Virus record (IMG/VR): IMGVR_UViG_3300043429_000632
Span: 1-33,334 of that record
Length of the DNA stretch: 33,334 nt
DNA from: a virus
Direction: 5' to 3' (one strand)
Shown here: positions 1,656-33,334 of the stretch, piece by piece
Layout: every line of letters starts with the position of its first letter
Position numbering within the stretch: the first letter of the stretch is position 1
Position numbers and translations under genes: made by a program
Notes under the pieces: model-generated
The model's database searches: none
Told to the model about the DNA's origin: nothing
What the model saw: only the letters and a program-made list of their open reading frames with translations

Positions 1656-1837
1656 AACGGCAGCTGATAGAACATCTGTGGACAGGGCAGGCAATGCCGA
1701 TAGAGTATCTGGAATTACTCTTGTGTCGAGACCTGTACCACTGCACACCAGATCAGCTGCCAGACTATGAAACAATCCAGCGACACCTGGCAATGATTGC
1801 CATAGAACACCGACTAGACAGGCGCAGCAGGCTATGA
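1449..1837 (+). CDS. Tail assembly chaperone GT (-1 frameshift product)
   Basis: A -1 slip on CCCAAAA (1646-1652) joins the 68-residue G to a 61-codon extension read from 1652 to TGA at 1835-1837, giving about 129 residues. The extension has no start codon of its own that would make sense. It begins IERQLIEHLW and contains MPIEYLELLL and TPDQLPDYETI, which fits the T domain seen in other siphovirus GT proteins. The TGA overlaps the tape measure ATG (1834) as ATGA. In known phages GT recruits tail tube subunits to the tape measure. The frame and heptamer are seen; the function is family knowledge. Confidence 0.75.
1646..1652 (+). promoter_or_regulatory. -1 ribosomal frameshift slippery site
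   Basis: CCCAAAA is read in the zero frame as C CCA AAA and fits the X XXY YYZ rule, so both tRNAs can re-pair after slipping to CCC and AAA. The zero-frame stop TAG follows at once. I did not find an obvious stimulatory hairpin or pseudoknot by eye. Confidence 0.75.
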
Positions 1838-3723
1838 CGACAAATACCACAATCATCCGATTTGTAGGCGAGGATGAAGCGTCAAATGTTGCCCAGGGCA
1901 TTGATAAAAGCATGGCTGGGCTGTCGTCGTCTGCTGACGCGGTCAGTACGAAATTCAGCGCATTCAACGGCATTGCAGCGGGTGCACTGCAGGCCGTCGG
2001 CGGTGCGCTGACGAATTTGGTAGGCCAAGGTTTCAGCGCATTGTCTGGCGTCATCACAAGCAGCATTGCAGAAAGCCAGGGCTGGCAAAGCGCATTAGCA
2101 CAGACTGAAGCCGTGGTGAAAAGCACTGGTGGCGCAGCGGGTTTTACTGCTGCGCAGCTGGGCGACATGGCGAGTGCGATGAGCGCCAGCGCTGGTAAAT
2201 CGATGTTCAGTGATGATGCGATTTTGGGTGCTGAAAACGTGCTGGCCACATTTACCCAAATCAAAGGCGTCAATTTCACCGACGCAACAAGCGCCATTCT
2301 TGACGTATCCCAAGCACTAGGGCAAGACCTGCAGGGCACTGCCATCCAGGTAGGCAAAGCGCTCAACGATCCCGTTCAGGGTATTAGCGCATTGTCTCGT
2401 GTCGGTGTGAGCTTCAGTGAAGACCAGAAGGCTGCTATCAAAGCATTGGTGGAAACCGGTGATGTGGCTGGCGCTCAACAGCTCATCATTGCAGAGCTCA
2501 ATAAAGAATTCGGCGGCAGTGCAGCTGCTGCCGTCGACACGTATGCAGGCCGTCAGGCGGTGCTGACCGAAAAGATGAACGACGCAAAACAGCGCATAGG
2601 TGACGCATTGCTACCAGTGCTCACCCAGCTCACAGACGTGTTTGTGACAAAGCTGCTGCCGTACGTCGACCAGGGTGCGCAGATGTTTGCGACGTTTATT
2701 TCGTCGCTGCCTGTCGACCAAATCGAAGCGTTCATGGGTACCATTGCTACGGGTGTCGATAGTGCTATCGGCGGTTTCGACGAATTTAAACTGAGCATCG
2801 AAGAAGCGTTAGAAACAATGGCTGAATCAGAAACAGCCATGAGTCTGGCCACTGCGTTTGAGAACATCGGTACGGTATTGATGACCGTCGGGAGCAGCAT
2901 TGCGACAAATGTGCAGCCACTGCTGCTGCAACTCTGGTATTCGTTCAATGCCATCGTCGACGCGCTCGCACCAGTGTATGAGGCAATGAGCGCAGTATTC
3001 GCTGATCCTGCCGTACTGTCGGCATTAGATGGATTAGTACAGATTGCATCATTGCTGGGGCAGGTGGTATTTGCTGGCCTTGCAGCGTATGTGCAGATTC
3101 TTGCTGACGCGTTTATGACGCACCTCATGCCAGGTATTCAGACGGCAATGACCGTGATTTCTACGGTAATTAATGCCGTATTCCCAGTAGTGAAAGGCAT
3201 TCTTGAGAGCCTAGTGTTGTACCTGAATGGTGATACTACAGGCGCAATGACAAAACTCTCAGAAACGTTTTCGACCGTGTGGGAAAACATCAAAAAGGTA
3301 GTGCAGGGCGGTGTAGATTACATCGTGACCGCGCTGAAGACAAAGATAGAAGAAGCAAAGCAGCTGGGTACCGATATCGTCAAAGGTATCGCGAGCGGTA
3401 TCGACCTGGGCGTATCGTTTGTGAAAGAAGCCATTGAGCGCGTGCTAGGCGCTGCATTGCAGAAGGCGCGTGATTGGGGTTTGATTGAGTCACCCAGCCG
3501 TAAATTTGCAGCCATGGTAGGCGAGCCGATCGGGCAGGGTATGGCGCAGGGTATTATCAACACGACTGGCCTGGTCGCTGACGCTTCCAGCATGGCAGTG
3601 GGCAATGCTGGCGCAGTCACCACATACAATTACAATCTGAACGCGTCGTATGCAACGGTACAGAGTGAGGGCAGTATCATGCAAGATTTGCGCGCAATGC
3701 AGATTCTAGGCGGTGCAGTATGA
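1834..3723 (+). CDS. Tail tape measure protein
   Basis: A 629-residue protein and one of the longest in the tail cluster. It is rich in Ala, Ser, Gly and helix formers, with long hydrophobic stretches in the middle (roughly residues 340-470) and a Gly/Ala-rich N-terminus, as expected of tape measure proteins. It sits directly after the G/GT frameshift pair. It should set tail length and be ejected with DNA. At about 0.15 nm per residue it predicts a fairly short tail of roughly 95 nm (inference). The start ATG overlaps the GT stop, and its stop overlaps the next ATG (ATGA at 3720). Confidence 0.85.
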   Translation: MTTNTTIIRFVGEDEASNVAQGIDKSMAGLSSSADAVSTKFSAFNGIAAGALQAVGGALTNLVGQGFSALSGVITSSIAESQGWQSALAQTEAVVKSTGGAAGFTAAQLGDMASAMSASAGKSMFSDDAILGAENVLATFTQIKGVNFTDATSAILDVSQALGQDLQGTAIQVGKALNDPVQGISALSRVGVSFSEDQKAAIKALVETGDVAGAQQLIIAELNKEFGGSAAAAVDTYAGRQAVLTEKMNDAKQRIGDALLPVLTQLTDVFVTKLLPYVDQGAQMFATFISSLPVDQIEAFMGTIATGVDSAIGGFDEFKLSIEEALETMAESETAMSLATAFENIGTVLMTVGSSIATNVQPLLLQLWYSFNAIVDALAPVYEAMSAVFADPAVLSALDGLVQIASLLGQVVFAGLAAYVQILADAFMTHLMPGIQTAMTVISTVINAVFPVVKGILESLVLYLNGDTTGAMTKLSETFSTVWENIKKVVQGGVDYIVTALKTKIEEAKQLGTDIVKGIASGIDLGVSFVKEAIERVLGAALQKARDWGLIESPSRKFAAMVGEPIGQGMAQGIINTTGLVADASSMAVGNAGAVTTYNYNLNASYATVQSEGSIMQDLRAMQILGGAV

Positions 3724-4622
3724 CGTCGGCGTATTCCATTAGCTACAGCAGTGGTGGGAACACGTATAACCTCTCTCACCAGTCATCGTCATTTATGGTG
3801 CACTACCTGGGCGATGAGAATTTTGGCATGGCACCATTGCATTTGATTACGTCGCGGTCACCTGTGCAGCAGGGTGATACGACGCTTGATTTTCGCCTCG
3901 ATCCGCGTATCATCCAGATACCGATTTTAGTTGAGTGTTTCTCATTGCAGGAACAATACGACGTCAGAAACTATCTGCTCACGATGTTTAAACCGTCGAA
4001 TAAAAACGGTACGCTGACCGTTGTACAGCCAAACGGAACAATCCGACAGATTACCACGCGAGTGCTGGGCGGGCTCGATTTCAATATGGAAACGAGCGCA
4101 GGCCACAGCGTGCGCACGATGGTACGGCTGCGCTGCAGTGACCCGACGTGGTATGACCCGATGGAAATCACTTTACCTATTGTGACCATTTCAGGCACAC
4201 CGACGGCATACCCAAAGGCTTACCCGGTGAGCTATGGCACAAGCGCATTTGGTGGCAGCTATGACATTGCATACGCTGGTACCTGGCTGTCATACCCTAT
4301 TATCACGGTCACCGGGCCAGTGACGAATTTTTCTATTACCAACACCTCGAGCAATCAAAACATCTCGCTCATTGCAGGTACAGTGATTCCAGCTGGCACT
4401 ACGCTGCGCTTCGATCTGCGATACGGTTTAAAAACGGTTACCGACAATGCAGGAAATAATCGTATTAGCTGGGTAGACTCTTCAAGCGAGCTTGCACAAT
4501 TTGCCATTTATCCAGCGCCAGACGTCACCGACGCAATTAACAGCATTGTGGTGACAGGCTCAGGCACCACCACGGCATCATCAGTGACACTGGCGTACTA
4601 CAATCGATACATCGGAATATAA
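3720..4622 (+). CDS. Distal tail protein (Dit-like)
   Basis: A 300-residue protein immediately after the tape measure, coupled to it by an ATGA overlap. The N-terminal half has the typical Dit pattern: a beta-rich core, then a section where the ring-forming domain meets helix-strand segments (DVRNYLLTMFKP and TRVLGGLDF), followed by 'RCSDPTWYDP'. That last motif is commonly seen at the junction to the galectin-like C-terminal half. Dit forms the hexameric hub connecting tail tube and tip. Assignment rests on pattern and gene order. Confidence 0.75.
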   Translation: MTSAYSISYSSGGNTYNLSHQSSSFMVHYLGDENFGMAPLHLITSRSPVQQGDTTLDFRLDPRIIQIPILVECFSLQEQYDVRNYLLTMFKPSNKNGTLTVVQPNGTIRQITTRVLGGLDFNMETSAGHSVRTMVRLRCSDPTWYDPMEITLPIVTISGTPTAYPKAYPVSYGTSAFGGSYDIAYAGTWLSYPIITVTGPVTNFSITNTSSNQNISLIAGTVIPAGTTLRFDLRYGLKTVTDNAGNNRISWVDSSSELAQFAIYPAPDVTDAINSIVVTGSGTTTASSVTLAYYNRYIGI

Positions 4623-4632
4623 GGGGTAGACA

Positions 4633-5544
4633 ATGGCAAGTAACGAACGCTCGCTGGGGTGGAACACTGGTACCAGCAATGACGGTGCATCAGCATACAG
4701 TACTGACCGTATGATTGCAATGGAAAACAAGACGCTGGGTAGTGGCACGCTTATCACAGGTGGTTTGCTGGCGCTCAGTGGTACAGGCACCAGCACGCTC
4801 ACTATTGCAGACGGTGCTGCGCTGATTAATGGCTATTTCTACGAAACCACCACGGCATCGACGATTGCAGGGCCAGCAGCTGGTACATATATACTTGCGC
4901 TCATTAGCAATAATAGCGGTGGTACTTACACGGTGACCGCGTCGGCAGCTGGTACGACTACGGTGCTTGATAAAACGGTACGTATGGCGATTGCATTGCA
5001 AACACAGTTGAACACTATCGGCGCTGCAAATTATATTGCGTATGCTACCGTGGTGGTCAATGCGTCTTCACAGTTTTCGAGCATTAGCAGCTATTACCCC
5101 TTTGCACAGACGCGCCAAATCCCACAACAGCAGTATGTGTATATGCGTGGTGGTACAGCGTCGCTCACCCTGGCCAGCACCTACTATGACCTCACCAGCT
5201 TCAGCAGCCCAGTAACACCCAGCACTGATGGCACGATGAGCGTCAACACCACAACTGGCGCAATTACTATCCGTCAGAGTGGCGTATATACATTTTCGTT
5301 TCTGATGAAATTCGACAGCAACACCACAGGCACGCGCAAAGCATTGCTGCGAAACCTGGATTATGACTTTCAAATTGCTTCAGCAGCGGTATTGCCTCTG
5401 AGTGGTGACAGCGTATACCAGGCTTCCATTACGCTGCCGATTTCGGTGACGCTGGGCAGTGCAAATACCTACTATCTGCAGGCCTGGGCGAGTACGGCAG
5501 GGCGAAGCGTCAACGACTCACAGCTCACTGTGATTAGGGCATAG
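4633..5544 (+). CDS. Putative receptor-binding / tail tip protein with C1q-like C-terminus
   Basis: A 303-residue, Thr/Ser/Gly-rich protein lacking membrane or catalytic motifs. Residues from about 1 to 165 resemble a baseplate-attachment and beta region. From about 170 the pattern (ITIRQSGVYTFSFLMKF, then repeated strands to the end) resembles a C1q/TNF-like jelly-roll, common in phage receptor-binding tips. It sits between Dit and hub. Start ATG has AAGGGG upstream. Exact role is inferred; an adhesion or upper baseplate subunit is the alternative. Confidence 0.55.
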   Translation: MASNERSLGWNTGTSNDGASAYSTDRMIAMENKTLGSGTLITGGLLALSGTGTSTLTIADGAALINGYFYETTTASTIAGPAAGTYILALISNNSGGTYTVTASAAGTTTVLDKTVRMAIALQTQLNTIGAANYIAYATVVVNASSQFSSISSYYPFAQTRQIPQQQYVYMRGGTASLTLASTYYDLTSFSSPVTPSTDGTMSVNTTTGAITIRQSGVYTFSFLMKFDSNTTGTRKALLRNLDYDFQIASAAVLPLSGDSVYQASITLPISVTLGSANTYYLQAWASTAGRSVNDSQLTVIRA

Positions 5545-5545
5545 C

Positions 5546-6634
5546 ATGGCACCGTACTACACGATGAATGTATACGACAGCTCAGGCACGCTGCAGGCAG
5601 TGGTAACAAACTTCCTGACACTGTCGATTAGTAAACAGCTAAATGCTATCGATATGCTGCAATTCACCATCGACAACAGCGCATATGCTGCGCAGTATCT
5701 CGACATGGGCGCATTTGTTAGCATTTATCGGCAAGATGTTGAGCTAGGCATACCGAATCAACTTGAATTCTCTGGGCTCATTCGCAAAAAGGTGACCATC
5801 AAAGAGCTGCGAACAAAGCTGGTCGTCACTTGTGTCGGCTGGCTGGCGCTGCTCGCTGATCGTGTCATTGCATATAAATCGAATGCAGGCTATCTGTCAG
5901 TATTTAAAGCGGTACCAGCTGAAACAATCCTCAAACGGTTGTTCAATTTCAACATCGGCAGTTTGGCCACCACGGCAAACGGCAGACTGCTCGACGGTCG
6001 TGTAACTGGTATGACCACCAGCGCATCGACAAATACCGGTACAGCGCTCACCCTAAAATGCTCAATGCAGCCACTGCTGAAGACTATGCAAGAAATTGCA
6101 TATACCGGCGGCATGGCATTTACGCTGACCTATACAGCCCCAGCGACATGGACGTATACCACCTATTTGGGGCAAATCGGTACCGACCGTACCAGCTCGA
6201 TTACGCTCAGTGTCGGCACTGGCACCGTCGCGAAGATTACCCAAAACTACGATATCATCAACGATTTCAATACCGTTATCACGGGGGGCAATGGCACCGA
6301 AGATGCAAAATTATTTTCGGTACGACCTGGTACGCTGCCGACTGGCCTCGATCTGCGAGAAACATACGTAGACGCAAAGAACCAGCAAAATGCTACCGTT
6401 TCATACCTGAATCAATTCGGCAATAAAACGTTAGCTATTCAGCAGCGGAAGCGCGTCACCTACGCAGTCGACGTGCTGCAGACGTCAGAAATGCGGTATG
6501 GTAGGGATTATTTTTTCGGTGACAAAATCAACGTTGCCTGGAATAGCACAGCCATACCCCAGTATGTATACGGCGTCGGACTTGAGTGGAAAAGTACAGG
6601 CGACGAGGTGGTAAATGTCAAACTCAATTCTTGA
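5546..6634 (+). CDS. Tail hub protein (ReqiPepy6 Gp37-like)
   Basis: A 362-residue protein following Dit and the tip protein. The opening pattern (YDSSGTLQAVVTNFLTLSISKQLN, then a region with FSGLIRK, VTCVGWLALLADR and AETILKRLF) resembles the siphovirus ReqiPepy6 Gp37-like / tail-associated hub family. In that family two gp27-like beta domains form the central tail-tip hub through which DNA passes. No lysozyme or peptidase domain is appended. The last 20 bases overlap the next gene. Confidence 0.65.
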   Translation: MAPYYTMNVYDSSGTLQAVVTNFLTLSISKQLNAIDMLQFTIDNSAYAAQYLDMGAFVSIYRQDVELGIPNQLEFSGLIRKKVTIKELRTKLVVTCVGWLALLADRVIAYKSNAGYLSVFKAVPAETILKRLFNFNIGSLATTANGRLLDGRVTGMTTSASTNTGTALTLKCSMQPLLKTMQEIAYTGGMAFTLTYTAPATWTYTTYLGQIGTDRTSSITLSVGTGTVAKITQNYDIINDFNTVITGGNGTEDAKLFSVRPGTLPTGLDLRETYVDAKNQQNATVSYLNQFGNKTLAIQQRKRVTYAVDVLQTSEMRYGRDYFFGDKINVAWNSTAIPQYVYGVGLEWKSTGDEVVNVKLNS

Positions 6635-21417: not shown

Positions 21418-21760
21418 TGGATGGATTTCACCGTTTGAAAACATGAAGCGGGTACCGCGGGAAATACGGTTAGCATACCGTAAAACTGACGGAATAATAG
21501 AAGTTGCAGGTGTGCTGGAATATTTGAAGCTGCAGAACGCACCACATGTTGACACATACCCGGGTGAAATGCGTGTCTATCAGTGGACAAGCTACCCAGA
21601 TACGGATATTCAATATCTTTATTTACGCGGTACAAAATTATCTGATGTGAAAATGTACATACATCACCCTGACGATGGTATTGATATTGGACCAAAGATT
21701 GTGGAATATTTTATACAGGATTATGAGCGTACATTGGTCATTACCGACATCATCAACTAG
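21407..21760 (+). CDS. Hypothetical protein
   Basis: A 117-residue protein from ATG 21407, with AAGGGGAG 5-6 bases upstream. The same ribosome-site string (ACAAGGGGAGTATATGC) precedes the next gene at 21774. It is beta-rich with tyrosines (IQYLYLRGTKLSDVKMYIHH). Its codon composition is more AT-rich in the second half. Function unknown. Confidence 0.6.
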   Translation: MPHDGWISPFENMKRVPREIRLAYRKTDGIIEVAGVLEYLKLQNAPHVDTYPGEMRVYQWTSYPDTDIQYLYLRGTKLSDVKMYIHHPDDGIDIGPKIVEYFIQDYERTLVITDIIN

Positions 21761-21773
21761 ACAAGGGGAGTAT

Positions 21774-22349
21774 ATGCAGCGTAGTGCACCTGAGCTGGCA
21801 AAGCTGGCTATTCTGAACGACAAAGAAATCACCCGACTGTGCAAAGACGCAGGCATGATTGCACCGTGGGAACCGACGGAGCACCGACCAGGGGTGATCA
21901 GCTACGGGGTGACCAGCTTCGGGTATGACATGCGAGTGTCTAACCAGTGGGCAACACTGCAGGCTGACGTCGTCGACCCAAAAAACGAAATGACCACGGC
22001 AATTCAGCCGTTTCACGCTGACAGCATTGACATTCCACCTGGGAGCTTCGTGCTGGCGCGCTCACACGAGGTGTGGCGCATCCCTGATGATGTGCTGGCT
22101 ATCGTGGTAGGCAAGAGCACCTACGCTCGCTGTGGGCTTATTGTAAATTGCACACCTATGGAACCTGGCTGGATGGGTACGCTGACAATTGAGCTGCACA
22201 ATGCGACACTGCACACCATTCGTGTGCATGCGTTTGAAGGCATTGCCCAGGCGCTGTTCTATCGAGGCGAGCGACCGAAGACGACATACAAGGACAAGAA
22301 GGGCAAATACATGGGGCAGACCGATGTAACGGCAGCGGTGGTGAAATGA
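21774..22349 (+). CDS. dcd: dCTP deaminase
   Basis: A 191-residue protein of the dCTP deaminase/dUTPase fold, which converts dCTP to dUTP and so feeds thymidylate synthesis. Characteristic stretches include ISYGVTSFGYDMRV near the N-terminus, the core motif GKSTYARCGLIVNCTPMEPG, then GTLTIELHN with the glutamate expected to activate water, and AFEGIAQALFY near the C-terminus. The length matches trimeric bacterial dCTP deaminases. The start ATG 21774 is chosen for its clear AAGGGGAG ribosome site. It overlaps the DUF1599-like gene by ATGA; together they form a nucleotide metabolism pair. Confidence 0.9.
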   Translation: MQRSAPELAKLAILNDKEITRLCKDAGMIAPWEPTEHRPGVISYGVTSFGYDMRVSNQWATLQADVVDPKNEMTTAIQPFHADSIDIPPGSFVLARSHEVWRIPDDVLAIVVGKSTYARCGLIVNCTPMEPGWMGTLTIELHNATLHTIRVHAFEGIAQALFYRGERPKTTYKDKKGKYMGQTDVTAAVVK

Positions 22350-24642: not shown

Positions 24643-24828
24643 ATGAAAACAAAACGATGGTATTTGTCGAAAACCGTGTGGCTGAATATCATCACGGCTG
24701 TTGCGTCGGTGCTGATGCTGCTGGCGCATGATCCGTACTGGGCTGGCCAGGCAATGTACCTGCTGATGGGTAGCAGTGTGCTCAATGCGCTGCTGCGTGT
24801 CATCACTGATACGGAAATCGAGAAATGA
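24643..24828 (+). CDS. Holin
   Basis: A 61-residue membrane protein with a basic N-terminus (MKTKRWYLSKTVW) and two predicted membrane segments (LNIITAVASVLMLLAH and AGQAMYLLMGSSVLNALLRVI). The layout is that of small class II holins found beside amidases. ATG 24643 has a perfect GGGAGG ribosome site. It overlaps the small terminase start by ATGA. Holins form pores that release the endolysin. Confidence 0.7.
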   Translation: MKTKRWYLSKTVWLNIITAVASVLMLLAHDPYWAGQAMYLLMGSSVLNALLRVITDTEIEK

Positions 24829-25493
24829 CACGACGCAAACCCGAAGAACCGGATATGCCAAAAGAGGCAGAAATTCCGCTGTTTGGTGCGCGTGCACCTC
24901 GACCACCTGGGCGACCACGAAAGCGGCCACTAATTGAAGAGCCGAAGCGACCACGTGGGCGACCACGCAAAACGCCAGACGTTAAGGCTGAGCCGAAGAA
25001 CCCGATGAAAAGCCGTGCGTATGTGCGACCAGATACTATCATCCTGAAGTACAGCGACGGTACCACGGCAAAGACGACAAACCTTGACGTCGACGCATGG
25101 CTACCAGTGTTCATCAAACACCTGTCACTGTGGGGAAACGTCACTGCTGCCAGCGAGTATGTAGGCATTTCGCGCAAGACCGCTCGCAAGGCGTACAACG
25201 AGCGGCCAGACGTGCGCGAGCTGTGGCACGAAGCCATTGAGGAAGCTGCAGAGCGTCTCGAAATGGATGTGGCGCAGCGCTCGCGAAAGTCTGACCTACT
25301 CGCAATGTTTCTGTTGAAGGCGCTGAAGCCTGAGAAATATCGCGAGAAATACGAGCCACCACCACAGCAGGTGACAAACGATTTTATTGTGGAGATTGGA
25401 ATTGAGCCACCCAGACTTGCAGAATTCAACGCCAGTGAAGTTGTTGAAGCAGACGCAATCAACAGCGCCACAACTCGCATTCTTCCGGAGTGA
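24825..25493 (+). CDS. terS: Terminase small subunit
   Basis: A 222-residue protein. The N-terminus is proline- and arginine-rich with two AT-hook-like GRPRK cores at residues 29 and 45. A helix-turn-helix follows (NVTAASEYVGISRKTARKAY at about 105-125). The next helix (RELWHEAIEEAAERLEMDVA), then DLLAMFLLKALKPEKY, fits the small terminase tail. It recognises phage DNA and starts packaging with TerL. The AT-hooks are an unusual addition. Its last 92 bases overlap the large terminase start. Confidence 0.8.
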   Translation: MTRRKPEEPDMPKEAEIPLFGARAPRPPGRPRKRPLIEEPKRPRGRPRKTPDVKAEPKNPMKSRAYVRPDTIILKYSDGTTAKTTNLDVDAWLPVFIKHLSLWGNVTAASEYVGISRKTARKAYNERPDVRELWHEAIEEAAERLEMDVAQRSRKSDLLAMFLLKALKPEKYREKYEPPPQQVTNDFIVEIGIEPPRLAEFNASEVVEADAINSATTRILPE

Positions 25494-26604
25494 AGCGCGG
25501 TTTCGTGCGTTCATTGGTGGTCGTGGCAGTGGGAAAACACGCGCTGGTGTAATTGAAGTATTGCGCCAGCCAGCGAATTCAACGGGCATGATTATCGCAC
25601 CGACAAATGCCATGCTTCGCGACGGTGCGCGCAAAATGCTATTAGACATTGCGCGCAAGGCAAAAATTCTTGTTCAGGAAAACATATCGACAGGCACCAT
25701 ACGGCTGCATGGCAATCGTATTATTTTGCTGCGCTCAGCAGAAAACCCAGAACGTCTTCGTGGTGCGAATTTGGGCTGGCTGTGGGTAGACGAAGCTGCA
25801 CTAGTGAACATCGACACGTGGACAATTGCCATCGCCACATTGCGCGAAGAGCCTGGGCGCGCATGGGTAACCACCACACCACGTGGTAGGGATTGGATTT
25901 ATAACTTGTGGACGTCAGGCGATCCCGATTATCAAATCATTCACAGTCGTACAGCGGATAACCATTTTTTACCTGCGACGTTTATTGAAACGCTGCGCAA
26001 AAGCTACACCGAAGAACAATTCAGGCAGGAAGTAGCAGGCGAATTCGTCGACATGGGTGGCACGCTGTTTAAGCGACCGTGGTTTCAGATTGTCGACAGA
26101 GCGCCAGACGGTTTGGCATGGTTTCGGTATTGGGACACAGCGACCAGTATCAAAGAAACTGCCGACTATACGGCTTCGGTGAAATGCGCATTCGATGAGA
26201 ATGGTGTTCTCTACATTGCAGACGGTATCCGTGTAAAAGCGGAATTTCCAGACGTGCGCAAAATCATGCTGAACACCATGCGCAATGAGCAGTACGACAC
26301 GATGCAGGGTATCGAGCAGGCACAAGCTGGCCTGGGTGCACTGCAAGACCTCAGGCGTATGCCAGAGCTGGCTAATGTGTCACTGCAGGGGTATGTAGTG
26401 ACCAAGGATAAATTGCAGCGTGCAATGCCGTGGGCTGTGCGCGCTGAACAGGGTATGGTGCGCGTCGTGCGCGGTGAGTGGGTAAATCAGTTTATCGATG
26501 AGTGCCTGGCGTTTCCGTATGGCGATCATGATGACATGGTCGACGCGGTCAGCGGAGCAGTCGAAATGCTCGCAAATGGCCAGGTATTGTACGATTTCAT
26601 CTAG
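25402..26604 (+). CDS. terL: Terminase large subunit
   Basis: A roughly 400-residue packaging motor. ATPase: Walker A GGRGSGKT at about 39-46 and Walker B LWVDEA with D130/E131. Nuclease: RYWDTA with D245, and a final DHDDMVDA at about 375-382, the metal-binding acidic cluster. TTG 25402 is proposed as start because GGAG (25391-25394) lies 7 bases upstream; GTG 25435 and TTG 25387 are alternatives. An overlap with the small terminase gene of about 92 bases follows. It pumps DNA through the portal, and cuts it. Confidence 0.9.
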   Translation: MSHPDLQNSTPVKLLKQTQSTAPQLAFFRSEARFRAFIGGRGSGKTRAGVIEVLRQPANSTGMIIAPTNAMLRDGARKMLLDIARKAKILVQENISTGTIRLHGNRIILLRSAENPERLRGANLGWLWVDEAALVNIDTWTIAIATLREEPGRAWVTTTPRGRDWIYNLWTSGDPDYQIIHSRTADNHFLPATFIETLRKSYTEEQFRQEVAGEFVDMGGTLFKRPWFQIVDRAPDGLAWFRYWDTATSIKETADYTASVKCAFDENGVLYIADGIRVKAEFPDVRKIMLNTMRNEQYDTMQGIEQAQAGLGALQDLRRMPELANVSLQGYVVTKDKLQRAMPWAVRAEQGMVRVVRGEWVNQFIDECLAFPYGDHDDMVDAVSGAVEMLANGQVLYDFI

Positions 26605-26606
26605 GT

Positions 26607-29597
26607 ATGAGCGGGGTAACCATGGACTATAAAGCAATTGAAGCGATACCGGGTTGGTATAGCATTGCCAAAAAAGCCGGTGAGCTATACGGTACCATCG
26701 ACGCATACGAAAAGGTGCCGATGTACTACCGTGCGATAAACCTGCGTTCTGATGCGCTGGGTACGGTGCCGTTTCAATTGCTGCGCAATGATGAACCCGT
26801 CGATTATCCATTTACCACGCCACTGCAAAACCTCATCCAGCAAACCGAGCGCAGCCTACTGCTGACTGGTCGTGCGTTCTGGCTGCGCTTGTATCGTGGT
26901 CGTGTGCTATACGGTTTTCAATTTCTGAATCCTCGTTCTATCGAGGTGACATACCACGCTGATCAGCAGGTAGGCGCAGACTATCTGACTGGCCTGCGTT
27001 TCACCCAAAAAATGCAGTCAGGCGAGGTGCATGCTACCTGGACTATTGCGGACATTGTTTATTTTCACGAAGCCAGCATCAAAAGCGACGTGAATGAGGA
27101 AGTGGCGCCAGCGCGTGTGGCATTGCAGTCTGCCCAGCTGGTGTACTACCTGGAGCGTTTCCAGTCTGCGTTTTTTGAGCATGGCGCGCAGCCTGCGCTG
27201 GTGTTGTCGCTCGACAAAAGCGTTACGCCACCTGAGCTGGAGCGGATGAAAAGCCACTGGACTCGATACGTCGAAAACGTCAGCAATGCGTTTAAAACGT
27301 TTTTTTTCCGTGGCCAGGTGAACGCGCAAATTGTGACATTTCCGCTTGACCAAATGGATATGGCACCGATTCAAGAAAATGCTGTCAAGAACATTGTCAG
27401 CACGTTCGGCGTACCACGCACGATGATCGAAGCGAGCGCTGCAAACTATGCAACGGCTGATTCAGATAGACAGTCATTCTGGCGCGAAACGATTGTACCG
27501 AGACTCGCATACTATGAACGGGTTTTGAATGAACAGTTATTCAAGCCTTTAAAATACGAATTCAAATATCTACCTGAAATGTTAGATGTTTTTCAGGTCG
27601 ACGAGGCAGCACGCGCAAACAGCCTGGTGCTGTTGGTGCAAGCTGGGCTGCCTTTGCAGTACGCAATGCAAACGCTGGGGTATAAGAATATCGAAGCGGC
27701 GCTGGGTTTGCCTGAGCCTGAAATACAGGAGGTCGACGGAGGCGTAAACGTCGACAGCAATACCCCAGTCAATATGACGGCTGCACTGCCTGAAGAGCGC
27801 AACGCCAGCGGGCTCGCATCGGTGCGTATGCATGAGCTGGAGCAATACGAAGACAAAGCTACCAAGCGATACAAGCCAGGCAAGAGCGCAGCGGTCAAAT
27901 TTACCAGCGATACCCTGCCGGGGTATCTGTTGGATTACATCGACGCTGAGCTGCAAGGCGTAAAAAAAAAATCTGAAATAGCAGCCATTTTCGCAGCGGT
28001 CAAACTGTCGTATGCAGATATGACCACTGGCGAAAAACGTGTATACAAGGCCATCGTCAAAAAGCTAGAAACACGGAACGACCAGGTGGCAGCCCAGATT
28101 GCAGCGGGTGACTATGCTGCAATTGATACTGATCTACGCAATGTACTAGACGACAGCGTAGCAGGCGAGGTGCTCAAAGCTGGCGCTGAGCGAGTGCAGC
28201 CGATACGTGGCATGGCTGACGACCAGAGCGCGGCATTGGTCGAGCAGGGCATCAAGGCACATGGCGCGACGTATTTAGATAAGTACTGGAACCCGTTTTT
28301 ACAAGACTTGAGCGCGACTGAAAAAACCTATGTAGATAAAGTCATTGCGAACGCCATGGTGACCACTGGCAGTAGTGTCGAAGATATCAAAACGCAGTTG
28401 TCAATGTTTGGGCAATTGCGAGCAACGCGTATTGCATTCACTGAACCGACGCGAGCGGCGTCACAGCAGACGCTGACTATACGCGACCAGGCGCGAGGCG
28501 CTGGCATCATGGTCACCCGTATTTGGAATACGGAGAAAGACCGCATTGTGTGCCAGATGTGCGCAGACCTCGACGGACTCACCGAGGATATGTGGGAGAG
28601 CGTTTACACGGGTGATCAGGATATCACTTTGGGTGCACCAGCGCATGTGAACTGTCGATGTGACACGGGGCTGGAATATGTAGACGCAATGACGCAGCCA
28701 GTAGAAACAGAGCCTGAGCAGTTAACCATCGATGAGGCAACAGCGGAACCTGCTGACGTGCCACTATTGCAACGGAGCGCAGCGGAAATTGCGCAGCACA
28801 TTAAAGACGCAGTGCCTGCTGATCTGGCTGCGGATGCAAAAACGGTAGCAAATTGGAAAGGCAAAGGTGGGAGAGAACAACAATTAAATGATTACCATAG
28901 ACAAATGAAAAAATTGCACGGCTATGATTCAGCAGAAGCAAATGCAGCTGCAGATTTATACCAAAAGGAATTTCAGAATTATGAAAAATTAAAAATATCT
29001 GTGCAAAAAAGAGAAGAACAAGTATATAGAACTGTTCTCAGAGATTTGCAACATCAGACACCAGCAACTGTAAATGTTGTTTTTTCAGGTGTTGCTTTGT
29101 CAAAATCTCAACAAGCACGAATATCAGAATTGATTCAATTATCTATTGGTATTGCACCTGATAGCGGCAAACCAATAAATATTACTTATAAAGCACGCGG
29201 AGGTAGTGACACTGTGTCGGCTTCTTTTGGTAGAGGTGTTTTGACAGCTAACAAAAATTCCGATGCATCTTCAATTGTGCATGAATCGATGCACATTTTG
29301 CAAGATTTTCAACAATACGGAATTAGAGCAACAAACGATTTTGCAGCAACTCGTATTGCAAATGAAACTCCAGTTAGTTTGCAAACACAGGGATACAGTG
29401 TAGAAGCTATGACATATTTGGATCATACAGATTCAGCGTATACATTCCGCATCTATCCAAACATTATTCGTCAGATATCCGGGAATTATTGCGAAGTACT
29501 AACAACGGCTATTGATAATATCGCTTTAAAACCAACAGCAAAAGATACTGAATTGTTAGAATTGTTCTCGCAGATAGTGAAGGATGGTGGTAAATGA
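26607..29597 (+). CDS. Portal-MuF fusion with C-terminal HExxH metallopeptidase domain (putative polymorphic toxin)
   Basis: A 996-residue protein. Residues 1-390 have HK97-type portal features (YYRAINLRSDALGTVPFQLL, then FGVPRTMIEASAANYATADSDRQSF). Residues about 600-695 are MuF-like: DRIVCQMC with C649/C652, and HVNCRC with H680, C683, C685. The rest, from about residue 750, is encoded by AT-rich DNA and holds VHESMH (H892, E893, H896), a zincin motif, with E963 as possible third ligand. MuF proteins sit inside capsids, so this C-terminus could be delivered into the next host. ATG 26622 is an alternative start. Toxicity is inferred. Confidence 0.8.
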   Translation: MSGVTMDYKAIEAIPGWYSIAKKAGELYGTIDAYEKVPMYYRAINLRSDALGTVPFQLLRNDEPVDYPFTTPLQNLIQQTERSLLLTGRAFWLRLYRGRVLYGFQFLNPRSIEVTYHADQQVGADYLTGLRFTQKMQSGEVHATWTIADIVYFHEASIKSDVNEEVAPARVALQSAQLVYYLERFQSAFFEHGAQPALVLSLDKSVTPPELERMKSHWTRYVENVSNAFKTFFFRGQVNAQIVTFPLDQMDMAPIQENAVKNIVSTFGVPRTMIEASAANYATADSDRQSFWRETIVPRLAYYERVLNEQLFKPLKYEFKYLPEMLDVFQVDEAARANSLVLLVQAGLPLQYAMQTLGYKNIEAALGLPEPEIQEVDGGVNVDSNTPVNMTAALPEERNASGLASVRMHELEQYEDKATKRYKPGKSAAVKFTSDTLPGYLLDYIDAELQGVKKKSEIAAIFAAVKLSYADMTTGEKRVYKAIVKKLETRNDQVAAQIAAGDYAAIDTDLRNVLDDSVAGEVLKAGAERVQPIRGMADDQSAALVEQGIKAHGATYLDKYWNPFLQDLSATEKTYVDKVIANAMVTTGSSVEDIKTQLSMFGQLRATRIAFTEPTRAASQQTLTIRDQARGAGIMVTRIWNTEKDRIVCQMCADLDGLTEDMWESVYTGDQDITLGAPAHVNCRCDTGLEYVDAMTQPVETEPEQLTIDEATAEPADVPLLQRSAAEIAQHIKDAVPADLAADAKTVANWKGKGGREQQLNDYHRQMKKLHGYDSAEANAAADLYQKEFQNYEKLKISVQKREEQVYRTVLRDLQHQTPATVNVVFSGVALSKSQQARISELIQLSIGIAPDSGKPINITYKARGGSDTVSASFGRGVLTANKNSDASSIVHESMHILQDFQQYGIRATNDFAATRIANETPVSLQTQGYSVEAMTYLDHTDSAYTFRIYPNIIRQISGNYCEVLTTAIDNIALKPTAKDTELLELFSQIVKDGGK

Positions 29598-29815
29598 AAT
29601 TTGAAGCAAAGAGAGACAAATCAATTGCCATCTGGGACGATGTTAAACATAAATTTATCGGTGATTCTGAACTGATTAAAGACATCGAAACATTTATTTT
29701 TGTAATGTCCAATATAGGTAATGATGCTTTTGTTCAATTAATGAACAGACAGGAAATACTGAATATACAAGTTATTGAATACGTACCTGACGAATACCCG
29801 GAAGGGACGTTAGAC
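28860..29815. other. AT-rich module inside the portal-MuF gene and downstream gene
   Basis: Base composition changes sharply near 28860 and back near 29760-29815. My hand counts of single 60-base lines inside give 25-38% G+C (28921, 28981, 29221), compared with about half in the line starting 28801. The segment covers the metallopeptidase part of the large fusion and the small gene after it, and nothing else. This is the signature of a cassette acquired from another source. Confidence 0.75.
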
Positions 29816-29821
29816 GTATGA
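29594..29821 (+). CDS. Putative immunity protein
   Basis: A 75-residue acidic protein starting four bases before the end of the toxin-like gene (ATGA overlap). It shares the AT-rich composition of the metallopeptidase module and has no similarity I recognise to head proteins. Strand-helix patterns (SIAIWDDVKHKFIG; LIKDIETFIFVMSNIG) suggest a compact small domain. A small gene, coupled and compositionally matched to a toxin domain, is the typical place of an immunity gene. This is inference; it could be an accessory of the head protein. Confidence 0.55.
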   Translation: MKFEAKRDKSIAIWDDVKHKFIGDSELIKDIETFIFVMSNIGNDAFVQLMNRQEILNIQVIEYVPDEYPEGTLDV

Positions 29822-30297
29822 AAGTAATCGTACAAAACGCTGCATTGCACCTGGCCGACAAAGTACGAGAGGCGCAGCAGGCAGCCATTGCGACCATTGC
29901 ACAAGTAGCAGTCACCAGACTCAATAAAGACAAACCACCTGAGCCATTGCCCAACAGCATGCAATGGGTGAGCGATAAGCAAGAGCGCTTTGTCAAAAAA
30001 ATGTTTGCTATGAAGCGGATGACCAAATACCGACGCGGTCGCGGCAATGGCTTACCGTGGCAAACGTCGCAAAAACTTAATCGGTCATACGTCGTGCTAC
30101 GCATGCAAATCGGTGACGCATCGGTAGTGAGCACTGCTGCCTATGCTCGATACGTCGTAGGCGATGAGCAAAGCCAGATACACCAGGGGCGATGGAAAAC
30201 AGGGGCCATGGTAGCAGACGAAATGCAGCAAGACGGTGTGATAGACAAAATCATTGCAGATGCATGCAATAAAGCATTTGCCCCGACAACGTCGTAA
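29818..30297 (+). CDS. Head-proximal structural protein (HK97 gp10-like or minor head protein)
   Basis: A 159-residue protein. Basic middle with helical N-terminus, then KLNRSYVV, AAYARYVVGDEQS and HQGRWKTG. This YARYVxGD/HQGRW layout occurs in phage structural genes close to portal and capsid genes and resembles the gp10 tail-component or neck type. It overlaps the putative immunity gene (ATGA). A virion or assembly role is likely; the exact place is uncertain. Confidence 0.5.
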   Translation: MKVIVQNAALHLADKVREAQQAAIATIAQVAVTRLNKDKPPEPLPNSMQWVSDKQERFVKKMFAMKRMTKYRRGRGNGLPWQTSQKLNRSYVVLRMQIGDASVVSTAAYARYVVGDEQSQIHQGRWKTGAMVADEMQQDGVIDKIIADACNKAFAPTTS

Positions 30298-30308
30298 ATA
30301 TTCGGTAT

Positions 30309-30317
30309 TGCTACTAT
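30309..30317 (+). promoter_or_regulatory. Possible extended -10 promoter before the Dps-like gene
   Basis: TGCTACTAT (30309-30317) fits an extended -10 (TGN with TACTAT) in the only sizeable gap (44 bases) of the head operon. The -35 at the right distance is poor. The ribosome site AGGGGGAA follows 10 bases before the next ATG. Confidence 0.35.
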
Positions 30318-30341
30318 GACCGCAATGAGTAGGGGGAAGCC

Positions 30342-31127
30342 ATGGCAGGACAACGACACAGCGCAGCTGATGTAGAACTAATTAAGGCATGCCGTAAAGC
30401 GGTGATGGAACACGCAGCGAGCACGGCAGCACATGCCGATGCAATGAAACTGATGTTTGAGCAATTGGGCGACGATCTGCAAGACCTCGACACGGTCGAC
30501 AGTAGACAAGCCGAAACCGACGCGGTACGCAGCGTCAAGGCTGCAGACTTACCTGGCCAGCTGATTGAGCTGCTGGGTGCAAATACTTTGATGTGGTACA
30601 AGGCCAGCGCGATTCATTGGAACCTCACTGGGGCCGATTTCCCCCAGTATCACGGTTTCTTTGCAGAGGTATATGGCTCACTGGATGAAGTCATTGATAG
30701 CTATGCAGAGTTTGTGCGCAGCCTTGATTACAAGGTACCAAACACGCTTATGCAGCTGTGCATGATGCAGCCTGCCGAAATGATGGGCGAGAGCCTGCCA
30801 GAGATGGTAGCGAGTATTACCATTGCAAACTTGCGCATGCTCGACTTGTTGCAAGGCGGCGTGTACTTTGCTGGTGTTGCTGGTGAATACGGTATTCAGA
30901 ACTTCTTGCAGGATCGCCTTGCATATCATCAGAAGCTTCGCTGGATGCTGAAGGCAATTCTCACCCCGACGGCTGAACTGCCAGAGCCTGAAGAGCCTGA
31001 AGAGCCAGGTGAAGTAACAGAGCCTGCCGAAATGGAAATCGAGAGCGCCATTGCGTCGGATGATGGCAAACGCCAGTACAACAGCCTGGCACAGCAGCTG
31101 CTGTATGTGATGCGAGGTGCGCAATGA
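30342..31127 (+). CDS. Dps/ferritin-like protein in the head operon
   Basis: A 261-residue protein. Residues about 70-210 have the Dps four-helix pattern: IELLGANTLMWYKASAIHWN, then YHGFFAEVYGSLDEVIDSYAEF. The ferroxidase ligands H92, H104, D119 and E123 show exact Dps spacing (12, 15, 4; compare E. coli H51, H63, D78, E82). A helical N-terminal extension of 75 residues and a C-terminal PEEPEEPGE linker plus helix are unusual for Dps. Dps proteins oxidise Fe(II) with H2O2, store iron and protect DNA. Its position next to the capsid gene suggests a virion component. Strong ribosome site AGGGGGAA. Confidence 0.85.
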   Translation: MAGQRHSAADVELIKACRKAVMEHAASTAAHADAMKLMFEQLGDDLQDLDTVDSRQAETDAVRSVKAADLPGQLIELLGANTLMWYKASAIHWNLTGADFPQYHGFFAEVYGSLDEVIDSYAEFVRSLDYKVPNTLMQLCMMQPAEMMGESLPEMVASITIANLRMLDLLQGGVYFAGVAGEYGIQNFLQDRLAYHQKLRWMLKAILTPTAELPEPEEPEEPGEVTEPAEMEIESAIASDDGKRQYNSLAQQLLYVMRGAQ

Positions 31128-32677
31128 GCGTGAAAGCCATTGGTGAATATACGCTGAAGGGCAAGGGCATTGTATTCGGTGGGCGTGATTTGGTCGGCGA
31201 CACATTTACCCGTGATACAGACCTGGGTGAAACGCGGTCGTTTATCGGTATGCCTGTCTACTATGATCACAGCCTGGGCGAGTTGCGTCGGCAAATTGGC
31301 ACGGTCAAGTCGTGGACACCAGAGGACGACGGCATTGACGTCGAAATTGAGCTTGATCGACGCGATAAGTATGCACAACGTGTGATGCAGCTGGTGCGCA
31401 AAGGAGCACTAGGGCTGAGCACTGGCGCACTGCCACACCTGGTGGTGCGCGAAAACGGACAGCTGAAACGCTGGGTGGTTGGTGAAATCTCACTCACACC
31501 CACACCAGCTGAACCCAGAACTACGGCATTACCGACAGAACCCACAGGTACCACCAAAGGCGTACAGCAGGTGGTGCGGGCGTATGCGAGTGCATATACA
31601 AGCAATCATCAAGGGGTATCAGACATGGCTATTGACAAAGACGCATTGAAGGACGCACTGAAAGACGTGCTGACCGACATGCAAGGCGAGCCGGTGAGCA
31701 CTGGCGGCGTCATCGACAACAAGCAGGCACCGGCGGCAAAGAATCTCACCAGTCGCGGTTTCAGCAACGAGCCGACGGAAGCGATTTTGCACTACGTAAA
31801 GACGGGTGACGAAATTGCAGCCAAGGCCACGCTGGTGGAAGGCACTGGCGCAAACGGTGGCTATCTGGTGCCCCGCGATTTCTACACGGCTGTCATCGAC
31901 AAGCGCGATCAGCAGTGGATTGGTGCAAAGCTTAACATTCAGCGCTTCACCACTGACCGTCAGATTTTCGACATTGCAGACCAGAACGGCAAAGCGAACT
32001 TTGCATTTGTCGCTGAGTCTGGCAGTGCAAACTTTGACGAACCGACTTTCGCACAGAGCGCCATCACGGTGTACACCGCTTCGCTCGCAATGAAGGTTTC
32101 GAATCAGTTGCTGCGTGACCAGGCAATGGATCTGGAAGGCTTCTTGCAGCGTGAAATCGGTCGTGCGTATGCTCGACACCTGAACGATTACATGATCAAC
32201 GGTACCGGCTCAGGTCAGCCGTATGGCGTGCTGGCACGTGCGACGGTTTCCGAGACGCTGGCCAGCGTGTCGGGTGTCGACCAGGCTGACATCATTAACA
32301 TCGTGCACAAGCTGCCCAGCTGGTACGCAGACGACAGCAATGCTGTCGGCTGGGTGATGCAGAACAGCACACTGGGTGCCATTCGTGCATTGCAGGGCAA
32401 TTTCTACAGCTTCCAGCCGACCCCTATGGGTACGATGAATTCTCTGTACGGTAAGCAGGTCGCTATTACCGACAAGATTGCAGCGCTGGGCACTGGTAAC
32501 AAGAGCATCTTGTTTGGTAACTGGGGATATTACGCATTCGTCGAAAATCTCGGGCTCGAGATTGCACGCAATCCGTACAGCTACCAGGCGAATTACCAGA
32601 CTGCGCTGTTCTGCACCGTGCGCTGGGGTGGCGACGTCACCCAGGCCGAGGCATTCGTGTACGGCGTGAATCCGTAA
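31124..32677 (+). CDS. Prohead protease-major capsid protein fusion
   Basis: A 517-residue protein. Residues 1-150 are an HK97-type prohead serine protease with H49 (VYYDHS), S99 (GLSTGAL) and E121 (GEISL) as likely catalytic triad. From residue 168 on it is an HK97-fold major capsid protein: a helical delta region (ALKDALKDVLTDM), then LVEGTGANGGYLVPRDFYTAVI, and a long E-loop and P-domain pattern to GDVTQAEAFVYGV. The fusion lets protease and shell subunit come from one gene. ATG 31625 with AAGGGG before it could give separate capsid protein. Confidence 0.9.
   Translation: MSVKAIGEYTLKGKGIVFGGRDLVGDTFTRDTDLGETRSFIGMPVYYDHSLGELRRQIGTVKSWTPEDDGIDVEIELDRRDKYAQRVMQLVRKGALGLSTGALPHLVVRENGQLKRWVVGEISLTPTPAEPRTTALPTEPTGTTKGVQQVVRAYASAYTSNHQGVSDMAIDKDALKDALKDVLTDMQGEPVSTGGVIDNKQAPAAKNLTSRGFSNEPTEAILHYVKTGDEIAAKATLVEGTGANGGYLVPRDFYTAVIDKRDQQWIGAKLNIQRFTTDRQIFDIADQNGKANFAFVAESGSANFDEPTFAQSAITVYTASLAMKVSNQLLRDQAMDLEGFLQREIGRAYARHLNDYMINGTGSGQPYGVLARATVSETLASVSGVDQADIINIVHKLPSWYADDSNAVGWVMQNSTLGAIRALQGNFYSFQPTPMGTMNSLYGKQVAITDKIAALGTGNKSILFGNWGYYAFVENLGLEIARNPYSYQANYQTALFCTVRWGGDVTQAEAFVYGVNP
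31611..31627 (+). promoter_or_regulatory. Internal ribosome site and start for capsid protein
   Basis: AAGGGG (31611-31616), 8 bases, then in-frame ATG (31625-31627), which is residue 168 of the protease-capsid fusion and lies exactly at the start of the capsid delta-like domain. It would give a 350-residue capsid protein without the protease part, solving the need for far more shell subunits than protease. Confidence 0.55.
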
Positions 32678-32686
32678 GGAGTAGCG

Positions 32687-32896
32687 ATGCGCGTGATTCT
32701 CAAAAACGCGCTCGCCATGCTGGATGAGTCTGGCAAACTGAAAAGCTACACCGCGGGGTCAGTCGTTGACCTCGCGGAAGCCGAAGCACAGCGGATGCTG
32801 AACAGCGGACGTGCAACGGTAGCAGACAGCGAGCCAGACGCGCCAGCAGCGCAGGCCGAGGCACCGAAGCGGGGACGAAGGGCGAAGGGGTCGTAA
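32687..32896 (+). CDS. Small head-associated protein
   Basis: A 69-residue protein between capsid and connector genes. The N-terminus MRVILKNALAMLDESGKLKS is followed by VVDLAEAEAQRMLNSGRATV, then an Ala/Pro-rich acidic linker and a basic end (KRGRRAKGS). This pattern is common in small proteins following phage capsid genes, of unknown role. It overlaps the connector start by one base (TAATG). Structural or scaffolding role is inferred. Confidence 0.6.
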   Translation: MRVILKNALAMLDESGKLKSYTAGSVVDLAEAEAQRMLNSGRATVADSEPDAPAAQAEAPKRGRRAKGS

Positions 32897-33334
32897 TGGC
32901 ATACGTCGAAGTATCGGAGCTCAAAACCTATTTAGGTATTCAGTCAAACGCTGATGATGCACTACTAAGCGATATTTGCGAAGAGGCACAAGCGATTGTC
33001 GACAATATCTGCAATCGGACATTTGAGGCACACCAGGACAGCACACGGTATTTCAATGCGCTGGATATCCGATACGGTGGGCGTGTCGACGCATTTCAAA
33101 ACACGTTGCTGTTGGATGTTGATTTGTGTCAACTGACACGGGTGACAAATGGCAATAACCAGATTATTCCCAGCGAGGCGCTGGTATTGCTGCCGACGAA
33201 TTTCATTCCGTCGTATGCCATCAAAATCAAAATGAACACATCGTATGTTTGGACATACGTGGGCACGCCAGACACTGCAATTAGTGTTGTAGGACGCTGG
33301 GCGTACAGCATAAATTGCCCCACACCGATACGTA
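32896..33334 (+). CDS. Head-tail connector, 5' part (runs off window end)
   Basis: Starts at ATG 32896, overlapping the previous stop by one base. It begins MAYVEVSELKTYLGI with acidic helices (DDALLSDICEEAQAIVDNIC), typical of the gp6-type helical connector. The frame is open to the end of the window and continues at base 3 on the left, where it ends at 488. The part between 33132 and 33219 is the variant form of the tract at 128-215, with T-S, D-E and V-I changes only. Confidence 0.7.
   Translation, partial: MAYVEVSELKTYLGIQSNADDALLSDICEEAQAIVDNICNRTFEAHQDSTRYFNALDIRYGGRVDAFQNTLLLDVDLCQLTRVTNGNNQIIPSEALVLLPTNFIPSYAIKIKMNTSYVWTYVGTPDTAISVVGRWAYSINCPTPIR
33005..33334. repeat. Right copy of terminal overlap
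   Basis: This aligns gap-free to 1-330, with 19 substitutions; 16 of them are at third codon positions. Joining the copies gives a circle of about 33,004 bp. Sequence-level selection on the differences argues against random sequencing error. Confidence 0.9.

Follow-up and report, generated by a model that had tools for sequence, protein, structure and literature searches.

A Dps Domain in the Head Operon of a Tailed Phage Appears as One of Several Interchangeable Payloads of a Slot Protein

Introduction

What is a Dps-like ferroxidase doing among the head genes of a phage? The question is raised by an ORF for a 261-residue protein (30342–31127, + strand) in an IMG/VR virus record of 33,334 bases, the whole of which was analyzed and is referred to in the following as the window. 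The protein was taken from the ORF list and is matched by Pfam Ferritin, PHROG 3636 and 17 close homologues among the matches listed. An initial annotation had described it as a Dps-like ferroxidase extended at both ends, and had suggested that it is a virion or prohead component.

Results

Genomic context and relatives

Tail genes (tape measure, distal tail and minor tail) lie at the start of the record, at 1834–6634, and the terminase and head genes at its end, at 24825–33334; the record may therefore be a circularly permuted genome cut inside the structural block, or a fragment. A dCTP deaminase gene is found at 21675–22349 (PHROG 1663, 173 bits). The head operon, with all features on the + strand, comprises the terminase small subunit (TerS; 24825–25493, phrog_4044), the terminase large subunit (TerL; 25387–26604), a portal and MuF fusion with an HExxH domain at its C-terminus (26607–29597), and two ORFs of 75 and 159 amino acids (29594–29821 and 29818–30297, respectively) that are conserved by synteny. 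The Dps gene follows, and its stop codon overlaps the start of the capsid gene in an ATGA (31124–31127). The capsid gene (31124–32677) encodes an HK97-type capsid in its C-terminal part (residues 245–515; Phage_capsid 162.5 bits), for which the closest solved capsid by sequence is a Rhodobacter GTA-type HK97 capsid. Its N-terminal part is probably a prohead protease, judging from a weak match to phrog_4523 (major head and protease). The placement originally described for the Dps gene, between head-morphogenesis and protease–capsid genes, thus agrees with the portal/MuF fusion upstream and the overlapping capsid ORF downstream.

The C-terminal part of the portal/MuF protein (28950–29594) contains the HExxH motif (SIVHESMHILQDF, residue 892), like that of a zinc metallopeptidase; a Pfam search with this end domain gave no match. 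The domain is absent from the close relatives L029, L108, L114 and L162, where the protein is ≈687 residues long, and is present in others.

A scan of viral contigs returned, among the matches listed, 17 close relatives with 52–65% identity as well as stand-alone Dps proteins of ≈145 residues; these counts are of loci found, not true frequencies, as the collection scans give the same contigs repeatedly under several locus ids. As far as the contigs reach, the gene order in the 17 relatives is TerS, TerL, portal/MuF, 75-aa ORF, 159-aa ORF, Dps, protease–capsid, a 69-aa ORF and a 146-aa ORF. A deeper scan added a group that is ≈41% identical (L028–L030), in which the gene order is unchanged and the full-length versions carry an additional N-terminal module of ≈110 residues. 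The shared gene order that the initial annotation had proposed to look for is therefore present in both groups over the extent of their contigs, and the position between the portal and capsid genes, which we call the slot, is fixed in related phages, as expected of a phage prohead component. Two contig scans of bacterial genomes, one for each of the slot and capsid proteins, found no relatives.

Among the matches listed, most viral Dps proteins are encoded by stand-alone genes of 144–149 amino acids outside the head slot. Some of these lie 2–4 bases upstream of the terminase large subunit (L042:4203–4640, L061:6995–7429, L064:2637–3071, L068, L070 and L072), and in three loci the terminase was confirmed by Pfam Terminase_6N (≈100 bits). 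This is a second, unrelated placement of Dps by packaging genes.

The Dps domain

The central part of the protein, residues 69–209 (30546–30968), was assigned to the Dps/ferritin-like family by HMM searches and by Foldseek comparison with Dps structures in the PDB. Pfam Ferritin matched residues 76–208 with 46.7 bits (cut-off 24.5; E 3.9e-12), and PHROG 3636 matched residues 69–207 with 83.9 bits. The best PDB chain by sequence was Pseudomonas aeruginosa Dps (8ff9), with an E-value of 2.7e-8 for the single sequence and 7e-36 with a 32-sequence profile. In an AlphaFold model of the monomer, most of the core (residues 70–207) had a pLDDT above 90, and the top PDB matches of this core in Foldseek were Dps subunits, with TM scores of 0.73–0.91 normalized to the target. 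Taken from sequence and model, the ORF holds a real Dps (mini-ferritin) domain, with a predicted four-helix bundle closest to Dps subunits.

The four ferroxidase ligands H92 (30615–30617), H104 (30651–30653), D119 (30696–30698) and E123 (30708–30710) were invariant among the phage sequences in alignments of 17 and 32 sequences. They have the same spacing as H51, H63, D78 and E82 of E. coli Dps, which we take to be their equivalents. The initial annotation had been right about these ligands and their exact Dps spacing, and the predicted fold matches solved Dps with the ligands in register.

One position had been overlooked. The fifth Dps ligand, D67 in E. coli, aligns with Ala108, and the adjoining residue is Glu109 (30663–30668). 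This +4 to +5 shift is common among viral Dps, and the solved Dps-family protein 2pyb has a Gln at the aligned position. Since the fifth position varies in other viral Dps and is Gln in 2pyb, we do not take Ala108 to exclude the protein from the Dps family. The core is under strong purifying selection, with a summed dN/dS of ≈0.11 across the relatives. Dps usually assembles into a dodecameric cage with ferroxidase sites between subunits.

Flanking modules, linker and C-terminal helix

The extensions at both ends, including the acidic Pro/Glu linker and C-terminal helix noted in the initial annotation, proved to be real: the AlphaFold model has a helix at residues 8–41, a disordered acidic stretch at 211–240 and a C-terminal helix at 241–257. 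At the N-terminus, residues 2–46 (AGQRHSAADVELIKACRKAV...LGDD; 30345–30479) form what we call the RHS module, which is conserved in the Dps slot proteins and in many slot proteins with a HiPIP-like domain (see below). The N-terminal 75 residues had no match in annotated phages even at an E-value of 10, and their link to the longer, ≈110-residue module is visible only through L028 and L029. The acidic Pro/Glu linker (residues 210–240; 30969–31061), which is predicted to be disordered, differs between relatives and evolves faster (summed dN/dS ≈0.34) than the Dps core.

The C-terminal helix and tail (residues 241–261, with LAQQLLYVMRG; 31062–31124) carry a motif common to slot proteins that are split from the protease and capsid. 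The dN/dS of the tail is 0.28 over all pairs but drops to between 0 and 0.04 for the most similar ones, so it is conserved inside subgroups and less so between them. The motif, hydrophobic-Ala-Arg-like and at the extreme C-terminus, was found in 59 of the 60 distinct tails of split slot proteins and followed the HiPIP-like domain in none of 20 distinct polyprotein versions; as it was written after the tails had been inspected, its 1% background is no independent test, and the contrast between split and polyprotein versions is suggestive only.

Binding of DNA by a basic tail is a feature of some Dps-family members only. Here it was ruled out by charge: the N-terminal extension has a net charge of −4, the core −7, the linker −12 and the tail +2, for a total of about −21, which makes direct DNA binding in the manner of E. 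coli Dps unlikely.

Exchange of the payload

Eighty loci were fetched through the capsid protein, and the gene directly upstream was inspected wherever the contig holds it. The slot proteins share an architecture of an optional N-terminal module, the RHS module, a payload, the acidic linker, an optional DUF-like module and the C-terminal helix. Four kinds of payload were seen: Dps, a four-cysteine HiPIP-like domain, a Dps-like domain that has lost the ferroxidase ligands (L111–L113), and none recognizable. The exchange is clearest among close relatives. The slot proteins of L108 (Dps) and L114 (four-cysteine) are 87% identical over the first 143 residues, and their capsid proteins are 89% identical, but their payloads are unrelated. 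L108 and L117 are 91% identical across the last 105 residues. The capsid proteins of L114, L118 and L117 are 87–89% identical to that of L108, and again the payloads are unrelated. On this sequence comparison, the head-assembly slot takes several interchangeable payloads, Dps among them, a result beyond the reach of the initial annotation, which had read the one sequence.

The window itself has no HiPIP domain. In the proteins that carry one, the four cysteines are invariant in 38 diverse members. Pfam HIPIP (PF01355) matched 20 of the 38 at E-values up to 1, with a best of 8e-5; single proteins scored up to 21.4 bits, just below the gathering cut-off of 22. An AlphaFold model of the domain had a mean pLDDT of 91, and its first eight PDB matches in Foldseek were all HiPIPs (E 0.01–0.1, probability 0.90–1.00), with nothing outside the HiPIPs above a probability of 0.15. 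From sequence and model together, the four-cysteine payload is likely a HiPIP-like Fe–S domain with a putative cluster. That an iron–sulfur domain replaces Dps in the slot protein of sister phages suggests that exchangeable iron or redox proteins may be loaded into forming heads.

The ferroxidase ligands are invariant in every slot Dps other than L111–L113. These retain a Dps-like fold, so ferroxidase activity is not strictly required in at least one lineage. A label of "no payload" for L111 and L113, based on a low Dps profile score, was overturned by a 97% profile–profile match with the slot Dps family, in an alignment that takes in the shared N-terminal module. The ligand-less domain in L111:2298–3614 and L113:3873–5189 is rich in Cys (YYNCADQEVCCDAL) and possibly has a different metal site.

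On the capsid tree the payload labels cluster, yet there are eight changes over 74 rows. The AU test rejects a single Dps clade on this tree, with p = 2e-66 when only Dps is grouped and 0.0009 when the ligand-less pair is added. In contrast, the slot Dps domains themselves, including the ligand-less ones, grouped together and separately from 69 Dps of stand-alone phage genes, in one clade (support 95.6, from few columns). This pattern is best explained if Dps was captured once and afterwards either replaced or passed on with the slot gene.

Fusions to the prohead protease and capsid

The ≈110-residue N-terminal module aligns with a section of PHROG 2859; its occurrences in annotated phages are in genes named prohead protease, capsid maturation protease, portal or major capsid protein. 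Fusions appear in more distant phages. The N-terminal module and the HiPIP-like domain of L222 and L224 run into a prohead protease (Peptidase_S78, 113 bits in L222), and the capsid gene is next. The module, HiPIP-like domain, S78 protease and Phage_capsid form a single 904-residue ORF in L245, and Roseobacter phage CRP-831, whose record lists an isolate host, has the module, S78 and capsid in one protein of 974 residues. Fusion to the protease or capsid was thus seen for the N-terminal module (L222, L245 and CRP-831) and for HiPIP, but not for Dps.

In the metagenome-assembled Actinomycetia phage DSL-LC01 (L173:4015–9130), a gene annotated as "high potential iron-sulfur protein" lies just 5′ of genes annotated as "capsid maturation protease", the second of which also matches the HiPIP profile. 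The one DSL-LC01 paper is silent about the HiPIP annotation that is present in the record.

These fusions, the conserved gene order and the recurrence of the same flanks with other payloads give strong comparative support to a prohead or virion role, as initially suggested, for which protection of DNA, carriage of iron and a scaffold had been named as possible uses.

Discussion

Proposed role in the prohead

We consider the chances about even that the slot protein is internal to the prohead, with a Dps ferroxidase in its middle that is anchored by the flanks and binds Fe(II) or consumes peroxide or oxygen in the head. This reading builds on the fold, the presence of four out of five usual ligands, selection, synteny, module exchange and polyprotein fusions. 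From these we infer that the protein is incorporated into the head, where it would form a dodecamer, carry out iron chemistry and benefit the phage. The N-terminal module and C-terminal helix would keep the slot protein attached to the inside of the shell as it assembles, and the helix may substitute for the covalent link of the polyprotein versions by binding the precursor of the shell. The flexible acidic linker would permit the Dps domains to pair or to form the usual dodecamer. In the head, Dps would bind Fe(II) and use up peroxide or oxygen. This would reduce the damage that iron causes to DNA during packaging or storage, and the particle might end up with an iron core. Detoxification of Fe(II) and peroxide near DNA would be the most likely purpose of an iron-handling domain there, and the HiPIP version may have a related redox or iron role. 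Against this reading stand the ligand-less L111–L113, Ala108 at the fifth position, the payload-free slot proteins, the acidity of the protein, a tail motif defined from the very tails that it describes, and the weak protease match in the window.

Some of the same observations could be explained if the payload had a structural use only, as an oligomerization hub or internal scaffold, with a Dps oligomer on which the prohead nucleates or which determines its size, and an iron chemistry left over from capture. L111–L113, which have the fold without the ligands, nest inside the slot-Dps clade; payload-free slot proteins exist, and acidic, part-helical and part-disordered proteins adjoining the capsid gene would fit a scaffold. 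However, the ligands are invariant in all remaining slot Dps, which are under strong purifying selection, and the alternative payload is a four-cysteine HiPIP-like domain and not a helical oligomerizer, so what the payloads have in common is iron rather than shape. We regard a purely structural use as rather unlikely.

Alternatively, the gene might be an ordinary auxiliary gene for a free, cytosolic, late Dps that guards the host cell or intracellular phage DNA against oxidative stress, in which case the operon position would do no more than set the timing. The Dps proteins of gut and Lactobacillus phages have been so interpreted (PMC8008677, PMC6669764), and the predominance of stand-alone genes outside the slot among the viral Dps found would agree. 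The slot Dps, in contrast, is always fused to modules that it has in common with non-Dps slot proteins and head proteases, its ORF overlaps the capsid gene, and the exchange occurs domain by domain at one place, all of which make this explanation improbable. Hardly probable at all is a redox or iron switch on head maturation, in which the neighboring prohead protease is controlled by a Dps or HiPIP that responds to iron or oxidation: iron or electrons are the business of both payloads, and HiPIP is directly N-terminal to the S78 protease in L222 and L224 and to the protease–capsid in L245, but payload and protease are on separate chains in the window group, and some versions lack the ligands or the whole payload.

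If the slot protein is packaged within the prohead, as we favor, enzymes that handle iron would be present in phage heads, a role that we did not find described in the literature searched. This would be relevant to the survival of phage DNA under oxidative damage, to virion-borne iron and to the origin of encapsulins. The domain exchange provides an internal control, in that the same head occurs with a Dps, a HiPIP or a ligand-less Dps as payload, and also without one.

Comparison with known systems

Bacterial Dps proteins (P. aeruginosa 8ff9, Vibrio cholerae 3iq1 and Bacillus anthracis Dlp-2 1jig) have the same four-helix fold and H/H/D/E spacing and align over the whole domain. The slot protein differs from them in its N- and C-terminal extensions of 68 and 52 residues, its acidity, the Ala at the fifth ligand position and its location in a head operon. 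The stand-alone Dps of Gratiaviridae, other gut phages, Lactobacillus phages and Synechococcus phages (PHROG 3636) is likewise phage-borne, and in the gut and Lactobacillus phages it has been discussed as a stress or auxiliary enzyme (PMC8008677, PMC6669764). However, these are single-domain genes, whereas the slot Dps forms a separate clade and is joined to head-slot modules. The HiPIP-like payload has the four invariant Cys and the HiPIP-like fold of PF01355, but is embedded in a head protein. A search of the literature, mostly outside subscription journals, found no report of a phage HiPIP or of Dps in a phage head.

Among S78 proteases and protease–capsid polyproteins, CRP-831 has a PPxxVA...GLARA...WGGD module N-terminal to S78 and capsid. 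In the window group, in contrast, the slot protein and the protease–capsid are on separate chains, and the window protein lacks this first module while keeping the RHS module.

A parallel in layout is found in the encapsulins, which are thought to derive from HK97-type capsids. Read from the genes alone, the slot proteins combine a Dps or HiPIP domain with a linker and a conserved helix at the C-terminus, and their gene adjoins that of an HK97-type capsid. In Family 1 encapsulins, ferritin-like cargo carries C-terminal targeting peptides, ferritin-like domains can be fused N-terminally to the HK97-fold shell, and Fe–S ferredoxins occur as secondary cargo (PMC8346489). The tail of the slot protein (LAQQLLYVMRGAQ), compared by eye with the Family 1 targeting consensus (SDGSLGIGSLKRS; PMC8346489), did not match it, and the shell encoded in the window is a phage capsid accompanied by TerS, TerL, portal, protease and tail genes rather than a stand-alone shell. 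The slot system, judged by its sequences, thus resembles encapsulin cargo in layout and falls outside the encapsulins proper. By analogy, the phage head could serve as a cargo compartment, with the shell-anchored slot protein bringing Dps or HiPIP into the prohead by an encapsulin-like cargo logic, a possibility that we put forward tentatively and rate below an even chance. Ferritin-like and Fe–S cargo and an HK97-fold shell would then be mirrored beside a working phage capsid operon, and uncultured tailed phages would offer a natural model for the origin of encapsulin cargo loading.
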